A stretch of DNA of 64,000 nucleotides from Pseudomonas fulva 12-X (GTDB lineage Bacteria > Pseudomonadota > Gammaproteobacteria > Pseudomonadales > Pseudomonadaceae): contig NC_015556.1 in assembly GCF_000213805.1 (NCBI RefSeq), positions 124,001 to 188,000 of the forward strand, read 5' to 3'. The notes under the pieces are model-generated. The model was given only the letters and a program-made list of their open reading frames with translations, made no database searches and was not told the origin of the DNA. Position 1 is the stretch's first letter; each line of letters opens with the position of its first letter. The position numbers and the translations under genes were made by a program. Below are positions 8,639 through 24,521 of the stretch, piece after piece.

Positions 8639-8942
8639 CGCGGCATTCTAGGGGCGCGGGGCAGGTTGGGCAACGCTGGTGACGGTGAGGTCAACAGCTG
8701 TCGATGCGAGCTGCTGGAGGCTGCAATCAGTGCGCCGGCAGATTGCGAAGCTTTTAGGAGGCAACTCGAACACTAGAACGAAGAGCATCGAGATTGAAGC
8801 GCCTCGTGCAATCTATTTGCTATTCGATCGCCAGCTTTCTGCCATAAAAACGACCGTTCAGCGGTTTTTTGACGCGTTCGGGAACCCACCCGGCATGAGC
8901 CCGTCGTAGCGGCGAACGAGTTTTTAAGACGGGTATGGATGC
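8639..8942. other. Intergenic region between uvrD and the cdi operon
   Basis: 304 bases between divergent uvrD and cdiB. It must hold both promoters, but I see no convincing -35/-10 pair, operator or palindrome, and no coding potential. It marks the left edge of the cdi island. Confidence 0.5.
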
Positions 8943-10634
8943 ATGGTTGTACGCAACGGAGCTGCGGTTGTAGGGTTTTGTCTGGCTGTTTTTCCTGCTC
9001 TGGCGATCGCCCAGAGCCCTGGTGAACGTGAGCTGTATCGCGACAGGCAGGAGCGTTTGCTGCAAGAGCAGCAGCAACGTTTGCAGGAGCTGCAACAGCT
9101 CCCGGGCCGTGAGGCGCAACAGCCTGCCGAGCCTGCCCCGGGTGATGAGCGTTGCTTCGCCATCGACGATATCGAGATCAGTGGTGCCAGCCTGTTGTCC
9201 GAGGTCGATCGCGCCGCGATCCTCGCCCCCTTCGCTGATGACTGCCTGGGCGTCAGCCAGCTCAACGCGCTGCTCAAGGCCATCACCAATCATTACATCG
9301 ACCGTGGCTATGTCACCACGCGCGCCTATCTGCCCCAGCAGGATCTGTCTGCCCGTACCCTGAGGATCACCGTGGTCGAAGGCCGCCTCGAAGGCCTCGA
9401 CAGTTCCGCCCTGGCCAGCGACCGTGAGCTGGCCATGAGCTTTCCCGGCAAGACCGGTGAGGTACTCGACCTGCGCGAGCTGGAACAGCTGGTCGAGAAC
9501 CTCAACCGCTTGCCGTCGCGCTTCGCCAAACTGGAGCTGGTGCCCGGCGAGCAGGTCGGTGGCAGCCGCGTGCAGTTGCAGGGCGAGCGCAGCAAGCCGT
9601 GGCGCGCCAGTCTGTCGCGCCACAACAACGGCCAGCGCAGCACCGGCGAGCAACAGTGGGGCGTCGGCCTGGACTGGGACAGCCCCCTTGGCCTGGCTGA
9701 CCAGCTGAGCCTGCGTGCCAGCCGCGATGCGGTCAGCGACAGCTACCGCCACTCCCACAGCCAGAGCCTCTACTACAGCCTGCCTTATGGCTGGTGGACC
9801 TTCAGCTACAACTACGGCCAGTCCTACTACCGCACCAAAACCGACTTCGACGGCTTCCTGGCAGAAACCGATGGCGACTACCAGAGCCATAACTTGCTTG
9901 CCGAGCGCGTGCTGCATCGCGACAGCGTCAGCAAGACCTCCTTCAACACCGGCCTGAGCCACATTCGCACCAACAACTTCATCGAAGACAACCGTATAGG
10001 TGTCTCCAGCAATCGCCTCAGCGAATGGCAGCTGGGCTTCAATCATGGTCGCCGGGTGGGCAGTGCGTTCGTCAACGCCGACATCGGCTGGCAGCGCGGC
10101 ATCGGTGCCTTCGACGCCCAGGGCAACGGCCATCCCCGCGGCCGGAATCCGGTCGCTCGCTATAACAAATACACCCTCACCCTCAGCTACCTGCAGCCCT
10201 TCGATCTGGGTGGCGAGCGCTTCAGTTTCGAGAGTTTGGCCACCGGCCAGAAAAGCGAAGACCAGCTGTTCAGCCCTGCGCGCATCAGCGTCGGTGGCCT
10301 CAACTCGGTACGCGCCTTCAAGGACCAGTCGCTGTCCGGCAACAGCGGCGGTTACTGGCGCAACCAGCTGCGCTGGACCCGACCGGTCACCTGGGCGCCG
10401 TTGCAGCCGTTCGTACAGCAATACGGCGCTGCGCTGGCCTATGACGTTGGCGTGATCAGCCATGACAGCCACAACAGTGGCGCCAGTGGCCGCATGAGCG
10501 GCCATGCCCTGGAGCTCAGCGCCCGCGGCGAACACCTGGCCGCGTCGGTGACCTTCGCCCATTCCCTGGAACGCCCGGACGCCATCACCGAGAGTGAGCG
10601 GCCGGTGTACTTCCGCCTCGATGTGTTCTTCTGA
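8943..10634 (+). CDS. cdiB: CdiB/ShlB/FhaC-type two-partner-secretion outer-membrane transporter
   Basis: A 563-residue Omp85-superfamily barrel that exports the adjacent CdiA across the outer membrane. Signal peptide MVVRNGAAVVGFCLAVFPALAIA; a Gln/Glu-rich helix (residues 35-60, the plug helix in this family); first POTRA repeat beginning CFAIDDIEISGASLL (with second Cys in FADDCLG); second POTRA (LRITVVEGRLEGLDSS, GGSRVQLQ). From ~residue 220 the barrel has alternating strands rich in aromatic residues, ending in YFRLDVFF with a terminal Phe. The L6-loop motif is usually VRG(F/Y); here it reads SVRAFKDQSLSG, an Ala in place of Gly. Stop codon lies 25 bases before cdiA, with which it forms an operon. 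Confidence 0.92.
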   Translation: MVVRNGAAVVGFCLAVFPALAIAQSPGERELYRDRQERLLQEQQQRLQELQQLPGREAQQPAEPAPGDERCFAIDDIEISGASLLSEVDRAAILAPFADDCLGVSQLNALLKAITNHYIDRGYVTTRAYLPQQDLSARTLRITVVEGRLEGLDSSALASDRELAMSFPGKTGEVLDLRELEQLVENLNRLPSRFAKLELVPGEQVGGSRVQLQGERSKPWRASLSRHNNGQRSTGEQQWGVGLDWDSPLGLADQLSLRASRDAVSDSYRHSHSQSLYYSLPYGWWTFSYNYGQSYYRTKTDFDGFLAETDGDYQSHNLLAERVLHRDSVSKTSFNTGLSHIRTNNFIEDNRIGVSSNRLSEWQLGFNHGRRVGSAFVNADIGWQRGIGAFDAQGNGHPRGRNPVARYNKYTLTLSYLQPFDLGGERFSFESLATGQKSEDQLFSPARISVGGLNSVRAFKDQSLSGNSGGYWRNQLRWTRPVTWAPLQPFVQQYGAALAYDVGVISHDSHNSGASGRMSGHALELSARGEHLAASVTFAHSLERPDAITESERPVYFRLDVFF

Positions 10635-10659
10635 TTCAACGCGTAACGGAGTTATCCAC

Positions 10660-13600
10660 ATGGACGTTCGCAGCCCGCTCAATCGTGCCATCGCCCGCAT
10701 TCTCATAGGCGTCATGCTGTTCGACCCGGTCAAGGCGCTGGCCGCCGACCTGGCAGTCGACCCTGCCGCTGGCGGCAACACCAGCATCGGCCAGGCCGGC
10801 AATGGCGTGCCCGTGGTTAACATTGCCACGCCCAACGGCAGCGGCCTGTCCCACAACAAGTTCACCGATTACAACGTCGACCAGCAGGGCCTGATCCTCA
10901 ATAACGGCTCCCAGGCTTTCGTACCGAGCCAGTTGGGCGGCTACATCAAGGGCAACCCGAACCTGCAGGGCGGCGCCGCAGGCGTCATCCTCAACGAAGT
11001 GACCGGCAGCAACCGCAGCCAGCTCAAGGGCTACACCGAAGTGGCCGGGCAGGGCGCCCATGTCATCGTCGCCAACCCGCACGGCATCACCTGCGATGGC
11101 TGTGGCTTCATCAATACGCCGCGCGCGACCCTGAGCACCGGCGAGCCGAAAATTCAGGATGGCCGCCTCAAGGGCTTCGACGTCGAGGGCGGCGATATCG
11201 CCATCGAAGGCGCTGGCCTCAACGCCAGCAACGTCGACCAATTCGACCTGGTCACCCGCACTGCCAAGATCAACGCCGATATTTACGCCAAGCGCCTGAA
11301 CGTCGTGGCCGGCCGCAACGAGGTGGACGTCGACACCCTGCAAGCCAAGGCCAAGCCGGATGACGGCAGCGAAAAACCGCGGGTCGCTATCGACAGCACG
11401 GCCCTGGGCGGCATGTATGCCGGGGCGATCAGCCTGGTCGGTACCGAAAAGGGCGTCGGCGTGAACCTGGCCGGCGACATGGCGGCCACCGCTGGCGACA
11501 TCCAGATCGATGCCAGCGGCCAGCTGACCATGAACCGCAGCGCCGCCAGCGGTAACACCACGCTGGTAGCCGACAGCGTCGATCTCAAGGGCGATACCTA
11601 CGCCGGCGGCACAGCTCGTGTCGAGGCCAAGCAGGTAGACGTGCGCGAAAGCCTCGCTGCCGGTGAGCAGGTTAAGGTGCAGGCCGAGCGCCTGAACAAT
11701 GCCGGCGCCATCGAGGCCGGCGTGCGCGCCGATGGCAGCACCAACAGCGCCGGGCATTTGCAGTTGGACGGCGGCAGCGTGCGCAACGAAGGCCAGCTCG
11801 TCAGCCATGGCAGCCTGAGCACCGACCTGCAAAAACTCGACAACGCCGATGGCCAGATCGCCGCGGCAGGCAGCGCTACGCTCACGGCCAAGGAACTCGA
11901 CAACCAGAAGGGCCAGGTTGTCGCCCAAGGCAACCTGACCCTGGACACCGAGTCGCTGAACAACCGCCAAGGCAGCGCTTTGGCGGGCCAGGTGTTGGCC
12001 ATCGAGGCCGAGACTGTGGATAACCAGGCCGGCACCTTGGCAGCCGGCGGAGCCATCACCGCGAGGGTCACCAACGCCCTGAACAACGATGGCGGCCTGG
12101 TGGAGGCGGGCGGTCATCTCGATGTGCAAGCCGACAGCCTGAGCAATACCAAGGGCCGCCTGCGCGCCCTGGGCAGCGCCGGAGAAAGCCGCTTCACCAT
12201 CGGCGAGCAATTGAACAACGACGATGGCCTGCTGGAAGTAGGCAGTGCGGTGCTGACCTTCGACACCGAATCGCTGAGCAACAAGGGCGGCGTGGTGCGC
12301 CATCTCGGCAGCGCCGGGTTGGGCCTGGATATGGAGCTGCTCGGGCAGGCCGGCGGCGAATTCATCACCAACAGCGCGGTGAGCCTGAGCGCCAAGGAGT
12401 GGGTCAACCACAGCCTGCTGCAGGCCGCCTCCATCACCCTGGATATCGACCGGCTGACCCAGACTGCTGGCGGCGGCCTGCTGGCGGTCAACAGCCTCAG
12501 CACCACGGGCGAAAGCTGGATCAACGATGGCCGACTCGAAACCAACGGCAATCTCGACCTGCGTTTGAGCGGTGACTACCGCGGCAACGGCAGCCTGCTG
12601 GCCCTTGGCAACATTGATCTGCAGGCCGACAACATCGCCTTCGGCACTGACGCCAAGGTCAGCAGCGGCGGCTTCGGTCGCCTGACGGCGCTAGGCGAGC
12701 TCGTCAGCCAGGGGCGCATGACCGCCGCTGCCTGGCTGAGCATGGCCGCCGAGAAAATCGACAACCGCGGCACGCTTGGTGCCGGTGGCGACCTGCTGCT
12801 GCAGGCGGACAGCATCCGCAACGATGGCGGGCTGATATTCAGCGGCGGCAACCTGCAACTGCTGGCTGATCGGTTTACCAATCGTCTCGGCGATATTTAT
12901 AGTTTTGGTGATCTGCTTGTCGCTGCTGATGCTCAGGGAACGCGAGCTCAGAAAGTAGAGAACCGTTCAGGCTCTATCGAATCCGTTGGCAATTTGTTGT
13001 TCCGTACCGAGGAGTTGGTTAATACCAAAGATGTTTTCGAGCTCGTCCGTAACCAAACATATGGTGATATTCGTATTCATTGTTACGACTGCAAAGGTGA
13101 TCACCATATTGTCGACTACATAGCCACGGAGCGTTATGAAACATCGATAACCCAAGACTCTCCAGCTGGCCGAATCCAAAGCGGCGGTAATCTCGATATT
13201 CAAGCCTCTGAGGTTACGAACGCTTATAGCCAGATTTTCGCCTCTGAAGACCTGAATATCAGAGCAAATAATCTTAATAACATTGGTGCTGAAACTAGCA
13301 CTTCAGAGCGCGTGCGGACATTCTTTACAGGGCGCGTAACCGATGGAACCGAGCGGAGATTCCGCTACGCACATGTTATTCCCTACAACATGACAGGCCT
13401 GAATAAAGAGTTGCCATCTGCTATGTACAGATGGGGGGTAACGAGCGACATTGAAACAACCAGCCAGAAAAAGATAGCGGCCCCAGCGCTTATTCAGGCC
13501 GGCGGAGTCGCTAATATCCAGGCAGCCCAGAACATAAGCAATGCCACGATTCTGGAGCGGCAAGGCGTTGATCAGGGAACCGCTCGCTCCGTTGACACTG

Positions 13601-16600
13601 CAGTAGTCACGGGTCTTGATCCTTTGCGAGTACTCAACACCAACCTGCCTCCAGAGTTGGCCCAGCAAGCCGTCAACCCCATCGAGCTACCTGCCTTTGC
13701 TCTGCCAGCCGGTAAGAATGGCCTGTTTAGCCTGAGCACTAACCCTGCGCATCCCTATCTGATTGAAACCAACCCAGCATTCGCCAATCTGGGTAACTTC
13801 ATCAACTCGGATTACCTGCTCGGCCAACTCGGCTACAGCTCGGATGAGATGCAGCGGCGCCTCGGGGACGGCTTTTATGAGCAGCGCCTGATTCGCGAGG
13901 CAGTGATCGCCCGTACGGGGCAGCGGCTGCTTGCTGGCCTGAACAGCGATGAAGCGCAGTATCGCTATCTGATGGATAACGCTGTTGCCAGCAAAGAAGC
14001 ACTGAATCTCAGTGTGGGCGTTGCCCTGAGTGCCGAGCAAGTTGCTGCACTGACTCACGACATTGTCTGGATGCAAGAACAGGAGGTGCAAGGGCAGAAG
14101 GTACTGGTCCCTGTTCTCTATCTGGCTCAGGCCAGTGGACGACTCGCGCCAAATGGCGCCCTGATCCAGGGGCGTGACCTGGCGCTGATGAGCGGCAGAG
14201 ATCTGCAGAGCAGCGGTACGCTGCGAGCGAGCGAAAACCTTGATGTCAGCGCACGCAATATTGGCAATACCGGTCTGGTTGAGACCAGTCAGCGTCTGCA
14301 ACTGTTGGCCACCGGGAGCATTCGCAACGCCAAGAGTGGCGTCATTACTGGCAACGATGTGGCGCTTCAGGCCGGTACCGACATCATCAATGAGCGCAGT
14401 GTTCAGCAGGAGCAGCGTGAGGGCCGTAATTTCTCAAGCCTGAACACAGTGGTGGGACAGGCCTCGCGCATCGAGGCAACCAATGACCTGTCACTGGTTG
14501 CCGGTCGTGACATCCGCAATCTCGGGAGTACGCTGAGTGCTGGTGGTTCTGCTGAGTTGAATGGCGGCCGTGATGTTCAACTGCTCAGTGCACAGGCCGA
14601 TCATGCGTATCAAATGCAAGCGGGGCGCGTGCAGAACAAATCCAGTAGCGCGGTTCAATATGAAAGCGATATTAGGACCGGTGGTGATCTGCAGGTCAGC
14701 GCTGGTCAAGACTTGTCCGTCATTGCCAGCCGGCTTAATGCAGGTAATAGCCTGGAGGCGAAAACAGGGCGGGATTTGCTTATTTCCAGTGCCGCTAACG
14801 AGAGCCATTCCTTCTCCAAGTCCAAGAAGATTACTCAGAGCCGAGACCAGGTCACCCAGCAGTCGAGCGTGTTGCAGGCTGGGCAGGATGTTCGCTTGGC
14901 TGCCGGCAATGATCTGGGGCTGATTGCCAGCCAGGTGAAAGCTGGCAAAAACGTCGCTGTTGATGCCGGCCAGGATACGCAGATTCTTTCTGCGATGGAC
15001 GAAAGCGCCTCGTATTACTTCAAGAAGAAAAAGGGTTCCTTCGGCCGCAGCAAGACCACTCAGTCGGAAAGTTACGACAGCACCAATGTCGCGTCGGTGA
15101 TCGAAGCGGGTAATGACCTGACACTCAATACCAGCAAGGCTGCTGATGGCAGCCTGAACCTGAAGGGGGGGCGCGACGTTACGGTCATCGGTAGCCAATT
15201 GACCGCAGGTAACGATCTGCTGGTGGGTGGCACGGGAGACGTGGCTGTACTGTCCGGTGTCGAGGAGCATGGCTCTTATACCAAGAAGAGCAAGTCCGGC
15301 TTCCTCGGTTTATCTAAGAGCGGCAAGAGCCAGCTAAAAACCAGCGCTACGCAAGTGGGCAGTGAGCTCGAAGCGGGTAACGACGTTGTCATCGCGGCCG
15401 GTAATGACATTCGCCTACGGGCCAGCAACACTGATGCCGGCAATGACGTCGAGCTGCGCTCCGGCTTGGTCAAGGAATCAGGCGACATCAACTTGGTAGC
15501 CGCGAATGACGAGGCGTATAGCCGCAGCGAGTCGTACAAGAAGAAGTTTGGTCTCTCAGGCAGCGACGCAGTCGGTTTGGTTGTGGGCACGCCAAGTTGG
15601 GGCGGTGATATTGCCATCTCCAATGCCAAGAAGAGCGGCCAGGAAATTATCCGCTCTACCAATGTAGGTAGTCAGGTCAATGCCGAGCGTGACGCTTCGC
15701 TGATCGCCGAACGCGATATCAATGTCCTGGGCAGTGGCGTAAGCGCGGGCCGCAATGTGCTGCTCGATGCCGGGCGGGATGTAAACGTCGTTGCGGGAAG
15801 CAGCAGCGAGCAGGTTACCTCGTGGAGGAACACCAAGACCGTGGGGCTACTGCAGAGCGCAGATGGCAACGGCTTTACCACCTTCGTAGGAGCCGAGTCG
15901 CTCAAAGACAAGACTCGTACCTCTGAGCAGACAGCGGCGGCTAGTCAGATCAATGCGGGACTTGATCTGGACGTACGCGCGGGTCGAGACATCCGGCAGC
16001 AAGGCTCGGATATGCAGGCCGGTTACGACCTGAACATGAAGGCAGGGCGCGACATCGTCGTCGATGCTGCTCGTGAGCAGTCGAGTATCGAGAGGGAGCA
16101 GAGCCAGAAGCGTTCCGGTACCAGTACGACGGTTAGCCACAATTTCGAGCGCACCAAAGATGCGGTAAGTGGTGCAGGAAAAGGCGAGAACACGGTTAGT
16201 CAGGCTTCAAGCATTCTCAAGGCTGTGGACGGTGTTAGCCAGTTCCTCTCCGGCCCGACGTTTGACGGGCACTTCGGCAGCAGCAGCCAGAGCCAACGTG
16301 CCAGCCAAACGCACGTCAGTAACCGTGGATCTAATCTGTTAGCCGGCAATGACATCAACCTCGAAGCCGGCGACGACATTTCTATCGATGGCAGCCGTCT
16401 AGAAACGGGTCGTGATATCAAAGTCAACGCGACCAATGTTTCGCTGGGCGTTGCACGAGGCGAGTACGCTGTCGATAGCGAACAAAACGTCGGCAAAGGC
16501 GGCATCAAGGGGGGGACCTCAGGCGGCATCAAACTCGGTATCGGCGCCAGCACCGGTACCGCCACCCAAGAGGGGCTGCAGACTATATCCAGCCCGAGCG

Positions 16601-18978
16601 AGCTGATTGCGGGTCGAGATATCAGCCTCGATGCGAATGAAGATCTCTCCTTGATTGGTACGCGTGCGCAATCGGGTCGAGATATCACGATGAAAGCAGG
16701 CAACGACCTGCTCATTGGCGCAGCGCAGAACCAGAGTACAACCGACAATGATCGCCGCAACGCTGGCGGTGAGTTTGGTCTCACTATGGGGAGCGAGGGT
16801 TTTGGTTTTTATGTAAGCGCCAGCTTGGGTAAGGGCAGGCTGGATCGCGAAGGCGAACAGATGCAGAACGCCTATTTGTACGCGGGGCGTGACCTGACCT
16901 TCACCAGTGGCCGAGACACCAGCATCACGGGTGCTCATGTCGAAGGGGAAAACGTAAGCGGCGAAGTTGGGCGTAATCTTACCGTCTCTTCCATTCCGGA
17001 TACCGGCAAGGCGTCGGGTAAGGAATATGACGTCAGCGCTACGGTCACCGTAGGTTATGGCGTCAGCGTCAGCGGCTCTGTCGGTTTTGGTGAAACCAGC
17101 GGCAAGACCGATTGGGTTAATGATCAGACGCGGGTGGTGGCACGCGACAAGCTGGGCATTCGTACCGAGCAGCACACTCAGCTCGATGGCGCGTTGATCG
17201 CGTCGAAGACCGATAACCTCAAACTGGACACGGACACTCTGGGTTTCCGCGATATCCAAGGCGAGGATCGTGAGCGCAGCTACTACCTCAATGTCGGTGG
17301 TAGCTACGGCCAAGGCCAACAGGACAAAAGCCAGGTTGGCAAGGGTGAGGAAGGCCAGGTTGGCTGGAGCGTGGATGGCTATGAGTACGAACGGGAACGC
17401 GAGCAGACCGTACGCGCCACTATCGGTAAAGGCGAGATCGTCGTAGGCAGCGATGCCTACACCGGTCAGGACTCCACGGCAGGGCTGAATCGCAATGCCA
17501 GCAAGGCCTACGAGATTACCAAGGACGATGAGGCGCGCACTGATCTATACGTGACCAAGAGTTCTATAGAAGCGGTTGCCGCGCCGTTAGAGACGCTCGA
17601 TCAATGGAAAAAGTCATTATCTGAAACTGTCTCGAAAGAAGGACTCAAGAAAGATCTATATAAGGCAGAAGCCTTTATCAATAAAACGGTGGAGGTCGCG
17701 GGGCAAATAGGGGCATCTATTCGCGCGCAGCAAGTGGGGATGGACGCTGTGCCGTCAGCGCTAACTACTCATCTTGACGATGAAAAAGCGCTGTTAATTA
17801 CCAAGAATTTCGTACGTCGAGGGCTTGATCCAAAACTGCTGGAAAAACTCGGTGAGCGCGAATTGCAAGTTCTCAATGCAATGGCAGGCCATTTCGAAAC
17901 GTACGGAGAAAAGGCTGCAGCTTGCGAGAATTTGGGGGGCTGCACGTCCACAGTGAGTGGAAACAGTAAAGGCACGTTAACTTACACCTACGTGAAAGAT
18001 GGAAAAGTACAGTTTGCGACTCTCGGCACCGCAAATATATCTTCCCCTGGGAAGGTTTTATTATCCAAGGTCGCGACGTTCTACGATTATATTGAGCAAC
18101 TGCCTCTAGAAGAGGCCGCTCTTATGAGAGTTGCTGCGCAAGCCATGATGACGCCAGTGAAGAGTGGCGTGGGTATTGCGGGCAATATGATTGCCACAGC
18201 GCTCTGGGGAGAGCAGATAGCCGCAGCGAAACAAGACATTTCCCTAACTGTTGCCGGGACTCTTGCCGATCAAGAGAAGGAGAGACTAAAAGCCTCTGAC
18301 GAATACCTCCAGGAGCTACATGCCAACGGGGCCGTTGATCGGGAAGGAAGGCTGATTAACGAGCGTAATGTTTATGTTCAAGGTGCCGAAGGGCTAGTCG
18401 ATCTGGCATTGGATGGTGTAGGTTCGGCCGTAGTAAGGGCTGTAAGTGGTATCTGGTCGAGCGCGGACAGAATCAATGCCAACTCAGGGCGGCCGAAGAG
18501 CAATCCAGAAACCATTGATCCCGGGCGAGCACCGGATCATAGTTGGGGGCAGCCAAGTTCTACCTCAGGTACAAAAGGAACTGGTACTGTAAGCGAAGTA
18601 CCGCAAATCACTCTCAATCGTCGAAATGGCGCAGCGTTTGAGCGCCAAGTCGTTGAAGCATTCGGGCATGTTGGTGGGGTAAAGAATACAGCTCCTGTAA
18701 CGGTTCAGCTTCCTAACGGTGCGCAGGTAACGACGATCCCTGATCTGTGGGGGAAAAATGTTGGGGGGCTTTTGGAGGTTAAGAATGTCAAAGATCTTTC
18801 ATTGTCTAATCAGTTGCGAGCGCAGATCAAAGTTGCAAGCGATACAGGTCAGCCTCTGAATCTTGTTGTGAGTCCTAGAACAAATAATGTATCTGGAGAA
18901 CTCATGCGCCAAGTACGAAGCACTGGCGGTGATGTCTACAGATACAATCCTGCCACAGGTGATTTGACGAAGTTTTGA
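10660..18978 (+). CDS. cdiA: CdiA-type filamentous hemagglutinin / contact-dependent toxin with PD-(D/E)XK C-terminal nuclease
   Basis: 2,772 residues; start ATG 10660 with GGAG 8 bases upstream. Parts in order: signal region ending ALAAD; TPS secretion domain (residues ~40-300, [20 protein letters not shown]); first filamentous FHA repeat block (~350-740); an AT-rich unique region (~740-1020) at the position of the receptor-binding domain; the conserved [20 protein letters not shown] / [15 protein letters not shown] segment; second FHA block (~1150-2290, repeated AGRD and AGND units); a pretoxin region; and a variable toxin from ~2650. No VENN motif was found. The toxin matches the Tox-REase-7 pattern: FE at E2661, IPD at D2695, EVK at E2706/K2708, then [11 protein letters not shown] and NLVVSPRT. 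It is predicted to be a nuclease delivered to neighbouring cells. The last ~450 codons are AT-richer than the filament. Confidence 0.93.
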   Translation: [2772 protein letters not shown]

Positions 18979-18984
18979 TGGCTT

Positions 18985-19737
18985 ATGAAATCATATATAC
19001 AACTAGCAATTAGAACAAAATCCGAAACGATTGGCTGGGGCACTGGCGAAAAGCTTATTGACTCGTTGAGCATGAGCGGAGGGTTACTGCTTCCGGAGCT
19101 AGTGTCGCATAATGCAGATAAGTTCACGGAGCCTTTCTTGGGGAGCACTTCGTGCGAGAGTGTTTGGGCCTCTAAGGCTTCGATTCGCGCTAATGGTACC
19201 TTGTCGGATTTTTACCAAGATTTTGCATGGAAAAGAAAGAAAGCAATTAAATCCTCGGGTAGTGTTGTTCATACATCTCGAAATTTTCGTGGGCAACTTG
19301 TTCCTGGATCAATCTCCCTAAATGCTGCGTTTAGCGATAAGGTCGATTGGTATTCGCTTTTCCAAGCATGGTGTGAAATTTTTCCTCCTCAACTTGGAAT
19401 GCTTCATCCTTTTACTGGCCCCGAGCTAAGTCCGACTGAAAAGAATGGTAGCTTTCAGATCGGTTCGTTCAATTCGGCATTGAAACCGGATATTCCGAAT
19501 ATCGGCTGGGGAATGTTTTATGGAGACGAGTTTGCCCAAGAGGTCAATGCTGATCTAATCGCAGCGTCAGGCTTTCCTATTGAGAGAATAGGTGATGGTT
19601 ACTTGGTGAGAGTTACAAATAGCATTCAAGACGTGATAGATGATTTTCCGCTATTTTCAAAACGCCGCGCTGAGCTTAAAAGTTTGTTTCGAGAGGGACT
19701 TTTTCTCATCAATAATGAGCCTTCGATCTGGATATAA
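18985..19737 (+). CDS. cdiI: Predicted cognate immunity protein of CdiA
   Basis: A 250-residue cytoplasmic protein (no signal peptide or membrane helix) starting 6 bases after the cdiA stop, the position of CdiI in E. coli-type cdiBAI loci. It should bind and neutralise the CdiA nuclease in kin cells. The start is ATG 18985 (MKSYIQLAIRTKSETIGWG); the ATG at 18978 overlapping the cdiA stop closes after a dozen codons. Notable segments are DWYSLFQAWCEIFPP, IPNIGWGMFYGDEFAQEV and YLVRVTNSIQDVIDDFPLF. I do not recognise a named immunity family, so the role rests on position and on AT-rich composition shared with the toxin tail. Confidence 0.75.
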   Translation: MKSYIQLAIRTKSETIGWGTGEKLIDSLSMSGGLLLPELVSHNADKFTEPFLGSTSCESVWASKASIRANGTLSDFYQDFAWKRKKAIKSSGSVVHTSRNFRGQLVPGSISLNAAFSDKVDWYSLFQAWCEIFPPQLGMLHPFTGPELSPTEKNGSFQIGSFNSALKPDIPNIGWGMFYGDEFAQEVNADLIAASGFPIERIGDGYLVRVTNSIQDVIDDFPLFSKRRAELKSLFREGLFLINNEPSIWI

Positions 19738-19740
19738 TCG

Positions 19741-19766
19741 ACACCGGCCTTGCGCCGGTGTTGTTT
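19741..19766 (+). terminator. Terminator of the cdiBAI operon
   Basis: Perfect stem acaccggc / gccggtgt with a 5-base loop, followed by TGTTTT, 3 bases after the immunity gene stop. Confidence 0.85.
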
Positions 19767-19860
19767 TATCTACGACCAGCGGTAGGCAGCGGCCGGTTTG
19801 CATCATCGGTGCAGCATCTCTGCCACATGCATGCATCCACTTGTGCAAGATAGAATAATA

Positions 19861-19906
19861 GGGGACAGACCACGATTAATTCTCCCATAAATCGTGGTCT
19901 GTCCCC
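19861..19906. repeat. RAYT-type palindrome GGGGACAGACCACGAT, perfect 16-bp arms
   Basis: Left arm 19861-19876 (GGGGACAGACCACGAT), 14-base spacer, right arm 19891-19906, an exact inverse complement, followed by TTTT. The toxin-tail remnant starts directly after it. Its outer 13 bases equal the inverted repeats that bracket the tyrosine transposase at 20722-21509. Confidence 0.88.
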
Positions 19907-19910
19907 TTTT

Positions 19911-20017
19911 ACTCTTCTAAATCCTATAATTTAGCCGTGACGAGAACCTTGGAAAGGATTAAATCAGAGGCAGTGATTGTGGGGAGTCAGGTTAATAAAT
20001 GGCTTACGGGGCAATAG
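19911..20017 (+). pseudogene. Orphan CdiA toxin-tail remnant 1
   Basis: An open frame that emerges from the palindrome and reads SYNLAVTRTLERIKSEA, then VIVGSQVNKWLTGQ, ending at TAG 20015-20017. There is no ribosome site or obvious start. The stop is one base before the GTG start of the next, immunity-like gene, exactly the toxin/immunity spacing expected. I interpret it as the last ~35 residues of a displaced CdiA C-terminus. The toxin family cannot be told from this length. Confidence 0.55.
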
Positions 20018-20018
20018 T

Positions 20019-20615
20019 GTGAAGTATTATTTGCTTAGGCAGGATGTTGCAGTTCCCGGTAAGTGGGTGCTCGGTGACGTGCGGCATGTAGATAATTGGC
20101 ATTTTACTAATCCGCCTGTCAACTTTATGGAGCCTGGTAGATACGTTCTCGATATCCGGTTCGATGGTAAAGAGGCTGATTATTCTCTTGCTGGTTACGC
20201 TAGTACTCCAGTACTGAGTGCAAAGGCTTGCGGCGCTTTGGCTGGTTTGCCAGAGATTGATGAACCATACCGAAGTGTCGTTTTTGAGCCGGTTCAAATA
20301 GAGGGCAAGCAGGTTTCTCAAGATTATTTTCTGATGATTGTTGAAACGCAGATTGATTGTGTTGATGAAGAAAGATCTGACTTTAATAAATATGATTTTG
20401 ATGATCCTGTAAGGCCGGACCTAGCGGGTCACTATCGTTCCTTTTTTAATCTGGTTGTTGATCCCGCCAAGCTCGGATCACATCATGTTTTTAGGTTAAA
20501 GGAATATCTAGGTGCGCTAATCGTTAGTGATGAGATAAAGCTGCGCTTTGAAAGGGCAGGCGTGGTAGGTGCCATTTTCGAGTCGGTAAGTGGTGATCGA
20601 ATAACTGTTGCTTAA
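20019..20615 (+). CDS. Orphan immunity-like protein (Imm11/DUF1629-like)
   Basis: 198 residues from GTG 20019 (VKYYLLRQDVAVPGKW), chosen because it directly follows the preceding stop and is preceded by CGGGG; the frame stays open upstream to a TTG at 19977, inside the toxin remnant. The pattern agrees with Imm11/DUF1629 proteins: an N-terminal VPGKWVLGDV strand, STPVLSAKACGALAGLPEID, VFEPVQIEG, DYFLMIVETQIDCVDEERS, then HVFRLKEYLGALIVSDEIK and a final FERAGVVGAIFE. Such proteins guard against polymorphic toxins. Here the toxin partner is only a stub, so the gene is an orphan that may still protect against related cells. AT-rich relative to the core genome. Confidence 0.68.
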   Translation: MKYYLLRQDVAVPGKWVLGDVRHVDNWHFTNPPVNFMEPGRYVLDIRFDGKEADYSLAGYASTPVLSAKACGALAGLPEIDEPYRSVVFEPVQIEGKQVSQDYFLMIVETQIDCVDEERSDFNKYDFDDPVRPDLAGHYRSFFNLVVDPAKLGSHHVFRLKEYLGALIVSDEIKLRFERAGVVGAIFESVSGDRITVA

Positions 20616-20642
20616 TTGGACAAAAAGCAGCAGGCGTGGGTT

Positions 20643-20699
20643 AAAAAGGGACGAATTTATTTTCTGCTTAGGCTGAATAAATAAATCTGTCCCTTTTTT
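20643..20699. repeat. Imperfect palindrome of the GGGACAGATTTATTT family
   Basis: Left arm aaaaagggacgaatttattt, right arm aaataaatctgtcccttttt, about 15 bases apart. It is a degenerate relative of the perfect copy at 23200-23260 and closes cassette 1. Confidence 0.75.
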
Positions 20700-20721
20700 A
20701 CTAGGCGGGACGCGAATAACA

Positions 20722-21509
20722 GGGGACAGACCACAATTATTCCTACCATCTCGATAGTGGTCTAGGCTTGTAAGCCTCTATGGAAGGAGATTTTATGCCA
20801 CGTCGAGCACGTGTTTTGTTGCCAGGAATGTCACTTCATTTAATTCAGAGAGGAAATAATCGCTCAGCCTGTTTCTACGCAGCTGAAGATTATCTTTTCT
20901 ATCTGGATGTATTGGCGGAGCAAGCAAAGAAAAATGGGTGCGCTGTCCATGCTTGGTGCCTAATGACCAATCATGTTCATTTGCTGGTCACGCCCGAAAG
21001 CTCCGAGAGTACGGGCCTGATGATGAAGGGGCTAGGGCAGCGCTATGTACAGTACGTCAATCGGACATACTGCCGTAGCGGTACGCTTTGGGAAGGTCGC
21101 TTTCGCTCCTGCCTGCTGCAGGACGAGGCTTATGTGCTCGCTTGCTATCGATATATTGAAATGAACCCTGTGCGCGCCGGCATGGTTGAGCACCCAGGTG
21201 AATATCGCTGGTCGAGCTACCGGACCAACGCGCAAGGCGAGGCGTCAGTTCTGCGCTGTACACATCCTCTCTACCATACATTGAGTCAAGATGAGCGGCT
21301 CCGGGCTGAGTTCTATAGGGAGTTGTTCCGCTATCAGTTAGATCCAGGGCTGGTTGATCAAATACGTGCCGCGACAAATGGAAACTACGCGCTGGGGAGT
21401 CCGAAGTTTTCTGCCGAAGTTGAGGCTGCGTTGGGGCGAAGAGTCACAAGAGGCAAGCCAGGGCGTCCTAAGAGCGCGCCAGATATTTAGTAAAACGTGG
21501 TCTGTCCCC
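20722..21509 (+). mobile_element. RAYT unit bracketed by 13-bp perfect inverted repeats
   Basis: GGGGACAGACCAC at 20722-20734 and its exact inverse complement at 21497-21509 enclose a single transposase gene (20795-21490). Near the left end there is also a partial inner arm, gtggtct, at 20757-20763. The arms are the same sequence as the palindrome at 19861-19906. This is the arrangement expected of a REP-associated tyrosine transposase and its cognate palindromes. Confidence 0.78.
20795..21490 (+). CDS. rayt: REP-associated tyrosine transposase (RAYT, Y1/HUH family)
   Basis: Single-strand DNA nicking and joining enzyme related to IS200/IS605 TnpA, thought to mobilise or maintain REP-type palindromes. 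231 residues, start ATG 20795 with GGAAGGA 6 bases upstream. The HUH signature is N59-H-V-H62-LLV (LMTNHVHLLVTPES), and the catalytic tyrosine is expected at Y120 in CYRYIEMNPVRAGMV. The opening MPRRARVLLPGMSLHLIQRG and WSSYRTNAQG are typical RAYT segments. The gene seems intact. It sits inside the cdi orphan array and is bracketed by its likely substrate palindromes. Confidence 0.92.
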   Translation: MPRRARVLLPGMSLHLIQRGNNRSACFYAAEDYLFYLDVLAEQAKKNGCAVHAWCLMTNHVHLLVTPESSESTGLMMKGLGQRYVQYVNRTYCRSGTLWEGRFRSCLLQDEAYVLACYRYIEMNPVRAGMVEHPGEYRWSSYRTNAQGEASVLRCTHPLYHTLSQDERLRAEFYRELFRYQLDPGLVDQIRAATNGNYALGSPKFSAEVEAALGRRVTRGKPGRPKSAPDI

Positions 21510-21511
21510 TA

Positions 21512-21661
21512 TTATTCAAAAGCATCAGCGTGGCAGAGCAGCAGCAGGCTAGGCAGATGCTTCGGGAGTTCAGGCGTGCCCCTGAAAATGTGAGTGGTAA
21601 TTTGATCGGCGTGGATCTACAAGGTGAAGTATTGCGGGTCTCACCTTGGGCGCGTAATTGA
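21512..21661 (+). pseudogene. Orphan CdiA toxin-tail remnant 2
   Basis: Open frame running out of the right-hand RAYT repeat and reading SVAEQQQARQMLREFRR, APENVSGNLIGVDLQGEV, LRVSPWARN, with the stop TGA at 21659-21661. It lacks a plausible ribosome site. It ends 3 bases before an ATG and 18 before the preferred ATG of an immunity-like gene. Interpreted as the last ~45 residues of a lost CdiA C-terminus; the toxin activity is not identifiable. Confidence 0.6.
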
Positions 21662-21679
21662 CTGATGGGGCGTACCAGA

Positions 21680-22546
21680 ATGAAAAAAATAGAAGGAATT
21701 CTAGAGCAGCATCGGCACTGGCTCTCTCAGTCGGATGGGATGGCGGCTCAAGAGCTTGAGTACCTTGAAGAGGATCTTGCTTGTAACTCCTTGGAGGGGT
21801 TGGGCAATGTGTCCGATTCATTGGGGATACTTGCAGTTTATCACGGTATACAGGGAGAGGTTTCTATTTGTGCCGGTGATATTTCTGGCTGGGAGGAAGT
21901 ATCCCGCGCGATGATTTACCGCTATTGGGTACTAATGCTTAGAGCTAAGAGCTTTTCTAATACGAGCTTTCTCCGAGGTATTAGAAATGTGCCGAATCTG
22001 ACTAATCAGTTGAGCAATGCAGGTTGCTTACTTGCAGGTTTTATTGCTGCGGACAGGCGTGATCTAGCAGAGTCGGTCGCCGATGTGCTTGTAGGGATGT
22101 TAACTGTTGATGGAGCTGTTGATTCTGGCTATCTCAAAGAGCGTCGATTCGAACCTTTCATGCTATGGCTCTATTCTGTCTATTCGGGTGGGAGTGCACC
22201 TGCCCTGATTGAGTCCATGGATCTCGGCATTTACAAGAAAGTGATAGAAAGTTGGGCAGATGAGCAAAGGCTTGCTGGTGTACTGGACGATGTATGCCAA
22301 TATCACTTAGCTAACTCCGAAGATAAGGGCGGGGCTTGGGACCCTGAGTTTAAAAACCCACCTTTTGATTTGCTGCCTTTGGAGGTTCTAGCAATTTTTA
22401 AGGTTCGCCAACAGTGCGGGTTGAAGTCACCTTCAGTTGCGAATCCATTGTTATCTGTTGAAGTGGCTGCATTGGAGAATCTTGCTTTCAAGCCTGATGA
22501 CGTTTCTGTAAAGGTTGAGACAGCCTATAGAAATTTCTTCAGCTAA
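21680..22546 (+). CDS. Orphan immunity-like protein (Imm49-like, all-alpha)
   Basis: 288 residues from ATG 21680 (MKKIEGILEQHRHWLSQ), preceded by GGGGCG at an 8-base spacing; an in-frame ATG at 21665 is the alternative. Cytoplasmic, mostly helical: AMIYRYWVLMLRAKSF, NLTNQLSNAGCLLAGFIAA, DRRDLAESVADVLVGML, then WADEQRLAGVLDDVCQYHLA and LPLEVLAIFKVRQQCG. The length, helical make-up and NLT...L..AGCLLA region resemble Imm49 proteins, which protect against polymorphic toxins. The family call is tentative; the immunity role rests mainly on its place directly after a toxin-tail remnant. Confidence 0.6.
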   Translation: MKKIEGILEQHRHWLSQSDGMAAQELEYLEEDLACNSLEGLGNVSDSLGILAVYHGIQGEVSICAGDISGWEEVSRAMIYRYWVLMLRAKSFSNTSFLRGIRNVPNLTNQLSNAGCLLAGFIAADRRDLAESVADVLVGMLTVDGAVDSGYLKERRFEPFMLWLYSVYSGGSAPALIESMDLGIYKKVIESWADEQRLAGVLDDVCQYHLANSEDKGGAWDPEFKNPPFDLLPLEVLAIFKVRQQCGLKSPSVANPLLSVEVAALENLAFKPDDVSVKVETAYRNFFS

Positions 22547-22554
22547 GTGTGGAA

Positions 22555-22562
22555 GGGGACAG
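22555..22562. repeat. Half palindrome GGGGACAG at the end of cassette 2
   Basis: An isolated GGGGACAG nine bases after the immunity gene stop, with no matching right arm before the transposase remnant. It is probably the left arm of a repeat that was interrupted by, or recombined with, the IS4-type sequence that follows. Confidence 0.5.
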
Positions 22563-22585
22563 GAAAAAAGGATAAAAAGGGGGCG

Positions 22586-23199
22586 GATTTGAATGGCACT
22601 TACTTTAGCTTCTTTGGATGTCCGGATCTGCGGATTGTGCGGCGTGCGCAGGTACGTTTCTGCGTCATCAGCGGGTAAGGCTTTGGCCGCCGTTTGACTG
22701 CCCGAGGTTCTATCCTGCCAAGGCGCCGGCCTACACGTTTCTGTGCGATCAGCCTCAGCAGTTCAGCGATGGCGTCGTCATCACAGCAGCTGTGCAGCAG
22801 GCGCCACGTCAGCCATAGCTGGACGCTGTGCTTGAAACTCAGTTGCCTGGGCATGCAATCAGCCAACAACGCGGACTTGGTCATCAGCAGGCGAATCAGG
22901 TTGTAAGCCAGCAGGTAAACCCACAACTCCTTGATCGCCATCTGTGGTGTCTTGCAGCTGAGCACCTCCAGGCCCAGCGTGCTCTTGAGGTTGCGAAGGT
23001 CGAGCTCGACATGCCAGCGCTGCTTGAACAGCTCTTTGAGTGAGGCCTTGGGCGTCTGTTTGGCGCAGCACAAGGTGGTGACCAGGATTTTGCCAGCGGC
23101 TTTCAGTTCGCGTACGGTCAGTGTTTCGGGGACTTGTTCGTAGTCCTCTGGAGTCATCCAGGCGGGACGTTTGCGAGGCTTGTGCAGGTCGATCAAGCG
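22586..23199 (-). pseudogene. IS4-type transposase, C-terminal remnant
   Basis: The leftward frame from 23199 to the stop at 22600 reads FRLIDLHKPRKRPAWMTPED, ILVTTLCCAKQTPK, LFKQRWHVELDLRNLKSTLG, and a basic tail VKRRPKPYPLMTQKR. The RW.VEL..R.LK element is the end of the IS4 Y-(2)-R-(3)-E-(6)-K signature that holds the last catalytic glutamate. The N-terminal two thirds, with both catalytic aspartates, are missing: homology stops exactly where the palindrome at 23200 begins. The distal end gatttgaatggcacttactt (22586-22605) recurs identically at 24425-24444, suggesting it is the element terminus. Confidence 0.82.
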
Positions 23200-23260
23200 A
23201 AAAGGGGACAGATTTATTTTTGGCTGTGGAAATGGCTGAATAATAAATCTGTCCCCTTTT
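23200..23260. repeat. RAYT-type palindrome AAAAGGGGACAGATTTATT, perfect 19-bp arms
   Basis: Left arm 23200-23218, right arm 23242-23260, exact inverse complements around a 23-base spacer. It truncates the IS4 remnant on one side and gives way to a toxin-tail remnant on the other. Confidence 0.88.
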
Positions 23261-23263
23261 TTC

Positions 23264-23545
23264 ATGCTTGAAAATGCGTTTAAAGCAGTTAATGACCGCT
23301 TCTTAAATACGGCCCGTAAGGCTGGAAATGAAATATCAGAAGTGCACCATTGGAATTTCAGCAAGTCTGAGTTTCCGACGCAAATTGTCGATCCTCGGCA
23401 CCTGGTTCCTATTGACTCTAGGAGGACTCATCAAGAAATCCACAGGGCCACTAGCTCGACTAGAAATATTTGGGTGGGACCTATAGCTCCAGAACATATT
23501 ATTAATATTCCTGAGTGGTCAACTCCACTGCCGCAGCGAGATTGA
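23264..23545 (+). pseudogene. Orphan CdiA toxin tail 3, HNH/HHW-like nuclease fragment
   Basis: 93 codons beginning 3 bases after a palindrome (MLENAFKAVNDRFLNTARKA) with no ribosome site, so more likely the end of a displaced CdiA than a free gene. The histidine pattern ISEVHHWNFSKSEFP, IVDPRHLVPID, RRTHQEIHRATSS resembles compact HNH/treble-clef nuclease toxins with a paired HH and a later H...H. Most of the nuclease domain may be present. The stop is 4 bases before the next gene, an immunity candidate. If expressed without export sequences it would be toxic only inside the producer. Confidence 0.62.
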
Positions 23546-23549
23546 GTTT

Positions 23550-24068
23550 ATGAGTTATGTAAAAGTTTTAAAAAAGCTTTGTTTGCCCGACGCAGTTGTT
23601 GCTCTTGCGTCGGGTGAGCTTCATACCCCTGTAATTGGTTTTGATGCTCCTGCAAAGTGGTTTGGATACCCCCCAGCTTTAATTCCTATATTGAGTGAAA
23701 GCTCAGGGCCATCCTATCTCGGATATTGGAAACATTGGTTTGTGGAGCGCGAAAGCTCCTTTGTTAAGATGTATGTCGACTCCGATCGGGCGCTACTGGA
23801 AATTGCGAGAAACGCTGAGCAATTTTTTGGTGTGCTAATAATTGATGCAATCTCTCAATTCGATGGATTGAGTCAAGAGATAAAGACCTTTGCCAAAGAA
23901 ATTGGCGAAGAAACTGGTGGTGTAACGTTATCCGATTATGATCGAGTCTCACTGGAAACTGGTGATGACTTAAAAGGGCTTCATAGTCTTGAGGTTTTCC
24001 AAATAAAAACGCCACTGGCAGTTATACAAGATCAGACCAAGTACACTGGTAGCTTCCCTGTGCAGTAA
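23550..24068 (+). CDS. Orphan immunity-like protein, possibly shortened by a frameshift
   Basis: 172 residues (MSYVKVLKKLCLPDAVVALA), starting 4 bases after the toxin-tail stop. It contains GFDAPAKWFGYPPALIPILS, YLGYWKHWFVERESSFVKMY and NAEQFFGVLIIDAISQF, a layout reminiscent of SMI1/KNR4-like immunity proteins, though the match is loose. The frame closes at SFPVQ. A -1 shift near 24059 would continue for about 100 codons (FLNHSCPFELNNG, WYVSLDKEQLFYEYVSD, WLTLNSPGWSIRSARRA), so the intact protein may have been ~275 residues. Function inferred from position only. Confidence 0.55.
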   Translation: MSYVKVLKKLCLPDAVVALASGELHTPVIGFDAPAKWFGYPPALIPILSESSGPSYLGYWKHWFVERESSFVKMYVDSDRALLEIARNAEQFFGVLIIDAISQFDGLSQEIKTFAKEIGEETGGVTLSDYDRVSLETGDDLKGLHSLEVFQIKTPLAVIQDQTKYTGSFPVQ

Positions 24069-24373
24069 ATATTGCGAAAGGCTTTCTGAATCATAGCTGT
24101 CCGTTTGAGTTGAATAACGGGCAAGCTGAAAATCGAGTAGCTGGAGAATTGCCCAGTTGGTATGTGTCGCTGGACAAAGAACAGTTGTTTTATGAATATG
24201 TATCTGACTGTGCTTTTGATAAAGCGTGGCTTACATTGAACTCACCCGGTTGGTCTATTCGGAGTGCGCGGCGTGCTATAAAAGAACTGCAAGCTTATTC
24301 GAAGGATGAGGGATTCGATTTGCTTGTTGATGCATGGTTGGATGCAGCAACTGAGGACGCTGGCGGATACTAG
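24059..24373 (+). pseudogene. Probable frameshifted C-terminal part of the preceding immunity gene
   Basis: Open frame in the -1 register relative to 23550-24068, with no ATG/GTG start or ribosome site near its beginning (first TTG at 24110). It encodes a helical, acidic segment (LDKEQLFYEYVSD, ARRAIKELQAYSKDEGFD, LLVDAWLDAATEDAGGY) and stops at 24371. The absence of start signals and the immediate continuity with the upstream frame favour one broken gene, but a separate small gene cannot be excluded. Confidence 0.45.
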
Positions 24374-24411
24374 GGTTCAATCAAGGCATCAATGGAGTCA
24401 GAGTCTGGATT

Positions 24412-24448
24412 AAAAAAAGGGACAGATTTGAATGGCACTTACTTAAGC
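24412..24448. repeat. Isolated GGGACAGATTTGAATGGCAC end repeat
   Basis: Contains gatttgaatggcacttactt (24425-24444), identical over 20 bases to the terminus of the IS4-type remnant at 22586-22605 and in the same orientation. It marks the right edge of the orphan array, with no transposase attached. Confidence 0.75.
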
Positions 24449-24473
24449 GTTAACCAATTGATCTAAAGGAAAA

Positions 24474-24493
24474 GGGCAGATCTAGATCTGCCC
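24474..24493. terminator. Bidirectional terminator between the orphan array and galM
   Basis: Perfect palindrome gggcagatct / agatctgccc with A/T tracts on both sides. On the minus strand it lies 28 bases after the galM stop codon and is followed by TTTT. Confidence 0.75.
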
Positions 24494-24521
24494 CCCTTTT
24501 TCTAATTATTAAATTCCTCTT

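Follow-up and report, generated by a model that had tools for sequence, protein, structure and literature searches.

How do displaced toxin tails and spare antidote genes come to be stacked behind the live cdiA gene of a contact-dependent growth inhibition (CDI) locus, and why do they begin at palindromes? The question is raised by a 64,000-nucleotide stretch of Pseudomonas fulva 12-X—hereafter the window (G000:C1:124001–188000, from a genome of 4.92 Mb in one contig)—in which a cdiBAI operon is followed by three cassettes of a toxin stub and an immunity gene, interspersed with palindromes and a transposase gene (Table 1). Comparison with other genomes supports the view that these cassettes are displaced CdiA-type tails. 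With a modest preference, the whole is read here as a stepwise displacement array, in which the right-hand, nonhomologous joint of each exchange falls at the end of a TIRtron element. The term goes back to Di Nocera et al. 2013 (PMC3733652), who describe genes similar to those of RAYTs (REP-associated tyrosine transposases, REP standing for repetitive extragenic palindrome) that are flanked by terminal inverted repeats (TIRs); the genes are named TIRYT, many of them with GGGGWSAS ends.

The initial annotation of the sequence had claimed three cassettes behind cdiBAI, and this is confirmed: there are three displaced CdiA-type tails, each with an immunity gene. The gaps of 1, 18, and 4 bases between remnant and immunity gene are matched as well, as is the claimed AT-richness (43.9–47.7% G+C in the cassettes compared with 61.6% in the window and 58.5% in the cdiA core). 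The three frames described as start-less lie where they were placed, although that of remnant 3 contains an in-frame ATG at 23264. All three remnants have the expected homologues at CdiA-type C termini, which for remnant 2 is a toxin-type open reading frame (ORF) of 587 residues. Stub 1 aligns to residues 2761–2791 of a 2793-residue CdiA of G238 (L036) with 74% identity; herein, the live tail is an AHH nuclease (PF14412) and is directly followed by an Imm11 gene that is 70% identical to orphan immunity gene 1. Stub 2 matches the 587-residue ORF of G168 (L034) at its end, with 98% identity; this is a toxin-type tail and not a full-length CdiA, and the same immunity gene comes next, at 93%. Stub 3 is present in seven of 398 genomes of the genus, its own genome counted; it corresponds at 97% to the end of a 2359-residue CdiA (G358, L080) and at 68% to the end of a 2948-residue CdiA (G233, L084). 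When live tails 1 and 2 are compared with the window by tblastn, only their C-terminal parts are found. The cassettes thus have the makeup of an orphan CDI module, meaning a CdiA-type tail stub with its immunity gene, co-oriented behind cdiBAI. A VENN-type motif or a retained core, which is usual but not universal in such modules, is absent upstream of the stubs.

The break in homology was likewise predicted to fall at a palindrome, which holds for all three cassettes, to the exact base in two of them and within about 8 nt in the third. At junction 2, DNA homology to G168 (L034) and G122 (L033) begins at 21517, the last base of the transposase element. At junction 3, homology to G358 begins at 23262, one base past the hairpin end. 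At junction 1, for which the relative is more distant, it begins at 19916–19923, with the hairpin arm ending at 19915. The tail-3 homologue in G268 (L082) is cut at another point, at a palindrome of its own. Two of the palindrome ends initially given are those of the arm sequence CTGTCCCC: this is the right arm of the solo hairpin 19852–19915, ending at 19906, and the right end of the transposase element, ending at 21509, with the element itself extending to 21517. The third, 23260, takes in T's, CTGTCCCC itself ending at 23256.

The locus of G358 shows the third tail before its displacement, if the comparison is read in its simplest way. It is syntenic with the window: cdiA is 89% identical over 8836–12889, the upstream gene 91%, and the 3′ flank 94%. 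Herein, the syntenic cdiA carries as its live tail what is orphan tail 3 in the window, and behind this tail stand four hairpins, each 89 to 94% identical to the window copy over about 63 bp, with different genes between them. Because of the synteny and of tail 3 being live in G358, the window is most simply taken as the derived state of a G358-like locus. Most simply, then, the G358-like locus would be ancestral, and tail 3 would have been pushed downstream and cut at the hairpin. Immunity gene 3 is an intact ORF of 286 residues in G358 (L080 11509–12369) and is split into two frames in the window; it is therefore probably lost.

The coincidence of palindrome and stub recurs in other genomes, beyond chance, as is supported by junctions from two sets of loci. 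For the discovery set, 20 neighborhoods were fetched around relatives of the cassettes, the transposase, and the cognate immunity gene and around palindrome clusters, followed by 20, 14, and 20 more. The search for displaced tails used the tails of 89 long ORFs in these loci, and breakpoints were refined by DNA alignment. A junction was counted if homology started −3 to +15 nt after a right palindrome arm with up to two mismatches. Junctions were curated by hand, dropping CdiB, IS4, and other non-toxin ORF tails, matches under 60%, and repeats; their start positions were taken from DNA or protein alignment by judgment, and L061 2014, which is not at a palindrome, was included. Eleven of the 21 curated junctions qualify compared with 1.84% of random positions (p 2e-14), with gaps of 5, 5, 6, 7, 7, 7, 8, 8, 8, 9, and 10 nt. 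Without a duplicate, the count is 10 of 20, and without the window and the duplicate 7 of 17 (p 1e-8). Among control ORF starts, one of 88 qualifies. A motif-free hairpin finder places 8 of 20 junctions (L061 left out) within 15 nt compared with 1.9%. The replicate set comprises 27 Pseudomonadaceae loci that were fetched by the transposase alone. Herein, 5 of 8 true remnants qualify against a null of 0.55%; the p value of 4e-9 counts all 12 rows, four of which (L128 4670, L129, L131, and L135) are matches to the cdiA body rather than stubs. Chance as the source of the coincidence of pattern and junction is ruled out by the reversed-pattern and random-position controls. Two near misses overlap variant hairpins (L037 9669 and L085 9648), and four further near misses have gaps of −9, 28, 34, and 45 nt (L053 10952, L047 11790, L057 3027, and L080 13944, respectively). 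The offset is narrow and lies outside an intact hairpin, and therefore points to a defined element end and not to random breakage inside the hairpin.

In many cdi loci, small genes are parted by hairpins or transposase genes, namely in L036, L037, L040, L045, L047, L051, L053, L055–L059, L080, and L082. When 112 array ORFs were scanned, 30 Pfam families were matched. Among the 25 of them that were listed, with one to three members each, are the immunity families CdiI_2/3/4, Imm6/8/11/42, SUKH, Tdi1, and GAD-like, the toxin parts EndoU, Ntox24, TreTu, and CdiA tRNase, and in addition a LysR regulator and domains of unknown function. Several genomes carry Imm11 and Imm2 orphans side by side or near each other, in one order or the other and with or without palindromes between them (L040, L041, L042, and window 20019–22546). 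In L046, a palindrome and toxin stub are duplicated within one array (7648–7867 and about 10075–10294), as if the unit had moved or been duplicated.

The palindromes are of two types. Type A hairpins are near-symmetric with a G+C-rich base and are followed by T runs, whereas in type B a long T run is missing. Folded as single strands, the hairpins at 19853, 20640, and 23199 reach −21.8, −15.1, and −20.2 kcal/mol, corresponding to z-scores of −8.8, −6.8, and −8.6, respectively. Their feet are GAATAAYA or GAAAA plus GGGGACAG. An identity as canonical REP or REPIN is ruled out by the lack of a GTAG (or CGTC) foot and by only five to six pattern copies in the genome. The palindromes had been called RAYT-type, which is right insofar as they are the repeats of a RAYT-type enzyme; they are of the TIR-flanked (TIRYT) kind and not GTAG-tagged REPs. 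The transposase element carries the inverted ends GGGGACAGACCAC and GTGGTCTGTCCCC at 20714–20734 and 21497–21517, which are long TIRs with GGGGWSAS ends as in TIRYTs. Its transposase exhibits the motifs NHVH at residue 64, WE at 104, and YIEMNP at 125. According to PMC6006769, 20 of 26 TIRYTs fall into TnpA-REP subclass 2.1 (RAYT group 1), with NHVH, W[EQ], and YIELNP motifs and a median length of 238 residues. The window gene has these motif types, one residue apart in YIEMNP versus YIELNP, and likewise no GTAG REPs beside it. It differs in that no REP-like structure is reported there beside subclass 2.1 genes, whereas the solo copies of the array are strong hairpins. A C-terminal helix-turn-helix (Bac_DnaA_C, HTH_23, or HTH_28) is also reported there; in the window transposase, a Pfam scan at E ≤ 1 detected Y1_Tnp alone. 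The match to the REP-associated tyrosine transposase model NF047646 (70.5 bits, E 1.4e-19) is below the curated cutoff of 80 bits.

The 16 distinct transposase relatives in the fetched loci form two clades, eight at 65 to 100% and eight at 39 to 51% identity. In the closer clade, ends of the GGGGACAG[AG]CCAC type are present in seven of eight, none being found at L043; in the other clade, six of eight have GGGGACAGATTTATT ends, and none were found at the remaining two. Palindrome type thus tracks transposase clade without crossing, and both hairpin types are therefore taken as the ends of transposase lineages. That the transposase element simply inserted into a long toxin gene is rejected, since on its left lies the hairpin that follows Imm1 and not the missing toxin part.

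Where such elements lie was determined in two ways, starting from the transposase and from the palindrome. The transposase protein alone was searched against 84,980 species genomes, and the best 80 of 106 relatives, in 79 loci, were followed up; the numbers given for this search refer to these. In flanks, cdiA was counted at ≥100 aligned residues and E 1e-10, and the numbers of Pseudomonadaceae loci (27) and of those with a full upstream flank (18) were made by hand. L119 and L051 are one contig, and L126 and L053 share 1.7 kb. A co-oriented cdiA is present in the fetched flank of 14 of the 27 loci; among the 18 whose upstream flank spans 10 kb, 13 have it upstream. At the 52 loci outside the Pseudomonadaceae, cdiA is found at none and an rhs-like match at two. 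In the earlier loci, a detected cdiA is followed by a transposase gene or a fragment of one in 13 cases, and all 13 share its direction.

The pattern GGGGACAGAYYWNNWTT occurs six times in the genome, five of these within the array region, and its reversed control not at all; it was later widened to GGGGACAGAYYWMKWT, after its results were known. The pattern is present in 25 of 30 genomes and the reversed control in none. For position counts, seven genomes were left out because of incomplete match lists (G008, G012, G099, and G110) or several contigs (G011, G023, and G027). Two-partner secretion (TPS) genes below 170 bits and frames below 2000 residues were not counted as cdiA, and the limits of 15 kb (cdiA) and 8 kb (rhs) were fixed after the discovery loci were known, being preset only for the held-out test. 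Of the 146 arms in the resulting 23 genomes, 65 are found up to 15 kb 3′ of cdiA and 18 up to 8 kb 3′ of an RHS domain; together, 83 arms are 3′ of cdiA or rhs (1.08 expected), or 22 of 63 merged sites (0.39 expected). The upstream mirror of cdiA contains two arms, neither of them outside the downstream windows. Such an arm is found 3′ of 12 of 29 cdiA and 13 of 64 rhs genes. Ten of the 30 genomes (G046 and up) had been chosen for matching window DNA, which favors similar loci; a recount on the 14 unselected ones, without G000, places 30 of 74 arms and 12 of 39 sites there, where 0.46 and 0.23, respectively, are expected. For the 25 held-out genomes, the counts in these positions are 6 of 39 arms (0.20 expected) and 3 of 23 sites (0.12 expected, p 2e-4), all at cdi. 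The association is therefore real, as the held-out enrichment is significant, yet most held-out copies lie elsewhere. Order-wide, the pattern is present in 23 of 194 genomes and the reversed control once in each of five genomes.

Table 1. Features of the cdi locus and the array behind it, in window coordinates
Feature	Position	Strand	Basis
cdiB-type transporter gene	8943..10634	+	ORF; homologous ORFs 5′ of cdiA in L036, L061, L083, L084
Live cdiA: TPS domain, hemagglutinin repeats, C-terminal Tox-REase-7 (PF15649)	10594..18978	+	Pfam
Cognate cdiI	18985..19737	+	Relatives elsewhere 70–84% at DNA level; 79% protein match in L049
Solo palindrome type B (GGGGACAGACCACGATT...), junction 1	19852..19915	.	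Arms match transposase element ends
Remnant 1: C-terminal ~33 residues, AHH-nuclease CdiA tail	19916..20017	+	74% to L036 CdiA tail
Orphan immunity gene 1, Imm11 (PF07791)	20019..20615	+	Pfam E 7.5e-11; 70% homologue beside live AHH tail, L036
Palindrome type A (GGGACAGATTTATTT-type), ahead of transposase element	20640..20701	.	Hairpin fold
Transposase element, inverted ends GAATAACAGGGGACAGACCAC / GTGGTCTGTCCCCTATTATTC	20714..21517	+	Homologous elements end 21516–21518 in L008, L009, L010, L015, L018
Y1/HUH tyrosine transposase, TIRYT / RAYT subclass 2.1 type	20780..21490	+	PF01797 E 1.2e-12; motifs NHVH, WE, YIEMNP
Remnant 2: C-terminal ~48 residues of toxin-type ORF	21517..21661	+	95% DNA identity to L034, L033
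Orphan immunity gene 2, without Pfam family	21680..22546	+	93% homologue directly after same tail in L034
Truncated IS4-family element at palindrome arm	22574..23196	-	NF033592 E 4.9e-23; L022 homology stops at 23196; longer 402-residue relative in L060
Palindrome type A, junction 3, 63 bp	23199..23261	.	Four G358 array copies 89–94% identical
Remnant 3: displaced toxin tail, 93 residues, live in G358	23262..23545	+	97% to C terminus of 2359-residue syntenic CdiA
Orphan immunity gene 3, two frames (23550–24068; frame to 24373)	23550..24373	+	Single 286-residue gene in G358
Palindrome arm with IS4-type end, last boundary before conserved 3′ flank	24413..24448	.	Flank from 24470, 94% to G358

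In the displacement array that is moderately preferred here, cdiA would take up a new tail together with its immunity gene, and the old tail would move downstream and be cut back to a C-terminal stub with its immunity gene. Homologous recombination within the cdiA core would make the left joint. The right one would fall at a TIRtron element end—either that of a full transposase element or that of an internally deleted hairpin—and could be made by the HUH transposase cutting single-stranded hairpin DNA, which is favored, or by recombination of repeat copies. The stubs would be retained since their immunity genes may protect against kin that still carry the old toxin, and the one-way orientation of the transposase genes would fit with their riding inside displaced modules, which share the direction of cdiA. 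A bolder version, tentative and rather doubtful, is that a Pseudomonadaceae TIRYT lineage tied to CDI loci makes the nonhomologous joint by cutting and joining at hairpin ends—an integron-like antidote archive run by a Y1 HUH enzyme. In integron arrays, cassettes lie in a single orientation with a folded palindrome at their boundaries, which the array of the window resembles. Unlike in integrons, however, the stubs are toxin tails and the enzyme is a Y1 HUH transposase, and the attC cores GCCTAAC and GTTAGGC are absent from 18900–24600.

Several results weigh against stepwise displacement at element ends. Four of 20 discovery junctions have no palindrome arm within 60 nt (L047 13187, L081, L033 8842, and L061), and the same holds for one of eight in the replicate (L121), with two more having an arm only at 41 to 46 nt; no palindrome adjoins the junction at L122 8229. 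Orphan Imm2 and Imm11 stand side by side without a palindrome between them in L041 and L042, and no hairpin element was found in L044. Of the 39 held-out copies, 33 stand elsewhere than behind cdiA or rhs, the enrichment being far below that of the discovery set. Beside 29 loci away from cdi and rhs, 128 of 134 chosen ORFs were scanned (transposases and three other ORFs excluded) and matched 101 Pfam families of many kinds; among the 25 of these listed, none is a toxin or immunity family. The element ends are themselves putative, having been placed by comparison. Moreover, when the left and right flanks of 270 elements were mapped separately, no clear empty site emerged; only 14 of the 270 had flanks close together at another place, so that the power of this search is low, and the L081/L085 pair, differing by 26 bp, is not a clear case. 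Neither an empty site nor a target duplication was found, and the mobility of the palindromes is therefore only putative.

The narrow offset does not decide how the joint is made, being compatible with cutting by the transposase, with homologous recombination of repeat copies, and with deletions anchored at the end of an element once inserted; the last two could leave the same junctions. An explanation of this kind, which is rather unlikely but the strongest of the rivals, takes the elements as portable homology: they insert anywhere in the array, old tails included, and ordinary homologous recombination between the cdiA core on the left and palindrome copies on the right later swaps modules or deletes what lies between copies, the transposase merely spreading the repeats. 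The four closely similar copies of G358 fit with it, as do the duplicated unit of L046 and the single hairpin of junction 3, which cuts an IS4 remnant at its left edge and tail 3 at its right, as a deletion between two copies would. It requires, however, an earlier insertion in each tail, and tail halves flanking a palindrome were not seen, in a search of low power. About 60 bp of homology is moreover short for RecA-dependent exchange, which counts against it.

Less probable still is a passive accumulation, in which displacement is illegitimate recombination, as in the Vibrio and Acinetobacter model, and the elements pile up in tolerant, AT-rich arrays and then trim the stubs by adjacent deletions. 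Immunity pairs and junctions without palindromes do exist, and homology-facilitated illegitimate recombination is described in the literature (PMC5361080 and PMC6336857), in Vibrio without specific sites. This explanation predicts neither the narrow offset of 4 to 15 nt at stub starts nor the cdiA in a single orientation at 13 of the 18 transposase genes (best 80 of 106 relatives), and it would predict a similar richness at other tolerant sites. That selection keeps the hairpins as transcription terminators or as insulators between cassettes, with their placement at stub starts a by-product, is highly improbable: the symmetry, G+C-rich base, and T runs of type A would suit it, but type B lacks the T run, the transposase genes and exact stub starts are left unexplained, and a terminator scan with a loop limit of 3 to 8 nt, which may miss such hairpins, called none of the three junction hairpins.

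The scan for promoters and terminators made calls in the window that are no more numerous than in shuffles, the terminator calls being at 19739, 20799, 22018, 23744, and 24474. Directly after cdiI, at 19737–19770, lies a strong stem-loop with a T tail that is terminator-like and common to several arrays; it is matched at 100% over 26 bp in L004 and at 91% over 33 bp in L028. Toxin stubs are adjoined in L033 (13602), L085 (9600–9660), and L128 (about 14000–14790) by a variant family of palindromes whose ends are GGGGTCAGACCAC, and a further hairpin type, CAGGACTAGACAGTCCCC, is present in L037 (9624–9669) and L128 (15474). The one other exact-pattern copy of G000, in L113 (4935–5072; G000:C1 about 1970434–1970571), lies within a putative integron attC site (GCCTAAC...GTTAGGC) and adjoins a 76-bp attC-like site; an Rfam scan of L113 gave no match, and at the 32 other loci scanned no attC core pair surrounds a palindrome arm, isolated cores being the most that was found.

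An IS4-family element is found within palindrome arms in L060 (2184–3740) and at 22574–22609 and 24413–24448 of the window; the cut of the truncated window copy (22574–23196) falls near the left end of hairpin 23199–23261. In G010, GGGACAGATTTG stands on both sides of an IS4-family insertion as an apparent target duplication of 12 bp. The element seems to target these palindromes, in parallel to ISPpu9, for which targeting of REPs is described (PMC8450116). Palindromes are also found 3′ of rhs toxin genes, at 11 sites in G005, G020, G029, G036, G064, G084, G097, and G111 (e.g., L067 and L069), of which G005, G029, G064, G084, and G111 have no cdiA-type gene above the cutoff. The association may therefore extend to polymorphic toxins as a whole.

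Both parts of the system are already known on their own, namely orphan toxin–immunity arrays and TIRYTs. The array is like the orphan cdiA-CT/cdiI and rhs-tip arrays (Poole 2011, PMC3150448; Jackson 2009, PMC2935791; Ruhe 2016, PMC4927057) in that displaced tails and immunity genes stand co-oriented behind a live gene, and transposase and integrase genes between orphans are described in PMC4927057. The published orphans usually retain VENN or core, some in PMC3150448 being without; the stubs of the window have no core and start at element ends. Sequential displacement with retained immunity genes and with one homologous and one illegitimate joint is shared with the immunity arrays of the Vibrio type VI secretion system (T6SS) (Kirchberger 2017, PMC5361080) and with Acinetobacter cdi orphans (PMC6336857). 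In Vibrio, however, breakpoints are described as not confined to specific sites, whereas the illegitimate joint is here often at a defined element end. In Neisseria T6SS clusters (PMC10210955), small inverted-repeat elements (CREE, inverted repeats, and dif sites) likewise lie near toxin-delivery and effector genes, but these belong to other repeat families, and effector stubs cut at repeat ends do not appear among the features described there. With TIRYTs and TIRtrons (PMC3733652), the window shares the Y1 gene between long TIRs and the repeat copies elsewhere, which occur in some genomes and partly as dimers or clusters; unlike here, a link to toxin loci is not among the features described there, and "toxin" and "Rhs" occur zero times in the main text of that paper. 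The texts of PMC8129030, PMC2817692, and PMC3390384, as far as covered, link REPs to neither CDI nor Rhs, and among the matches listed for the open-access literature, preprints excluded, no work joining TIRYT or REP palindromes with CDI or Rhs arrays was found in titles, abstract starts, and term counts.

For the origin of orphan arrays, the published models covered here offer circular intermediates or illegitimate recombination and no defined joint. In the arrays described here, a defined sequence often marks the joint, and the candidate enzyme comes from a family with known single-stranded DNA chemistry; the step is therefore directly testable. TIRYT elements gain a striking genomic address, downstream of cdiA and in a single orientation at 13 of the 18 Pseudomonadaceae loci with a full upstream flank, and the palindromes are a practical marker to find and split immunity arrays. 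The hairpin-cut tails point to how bacteria stack spare antidotes.

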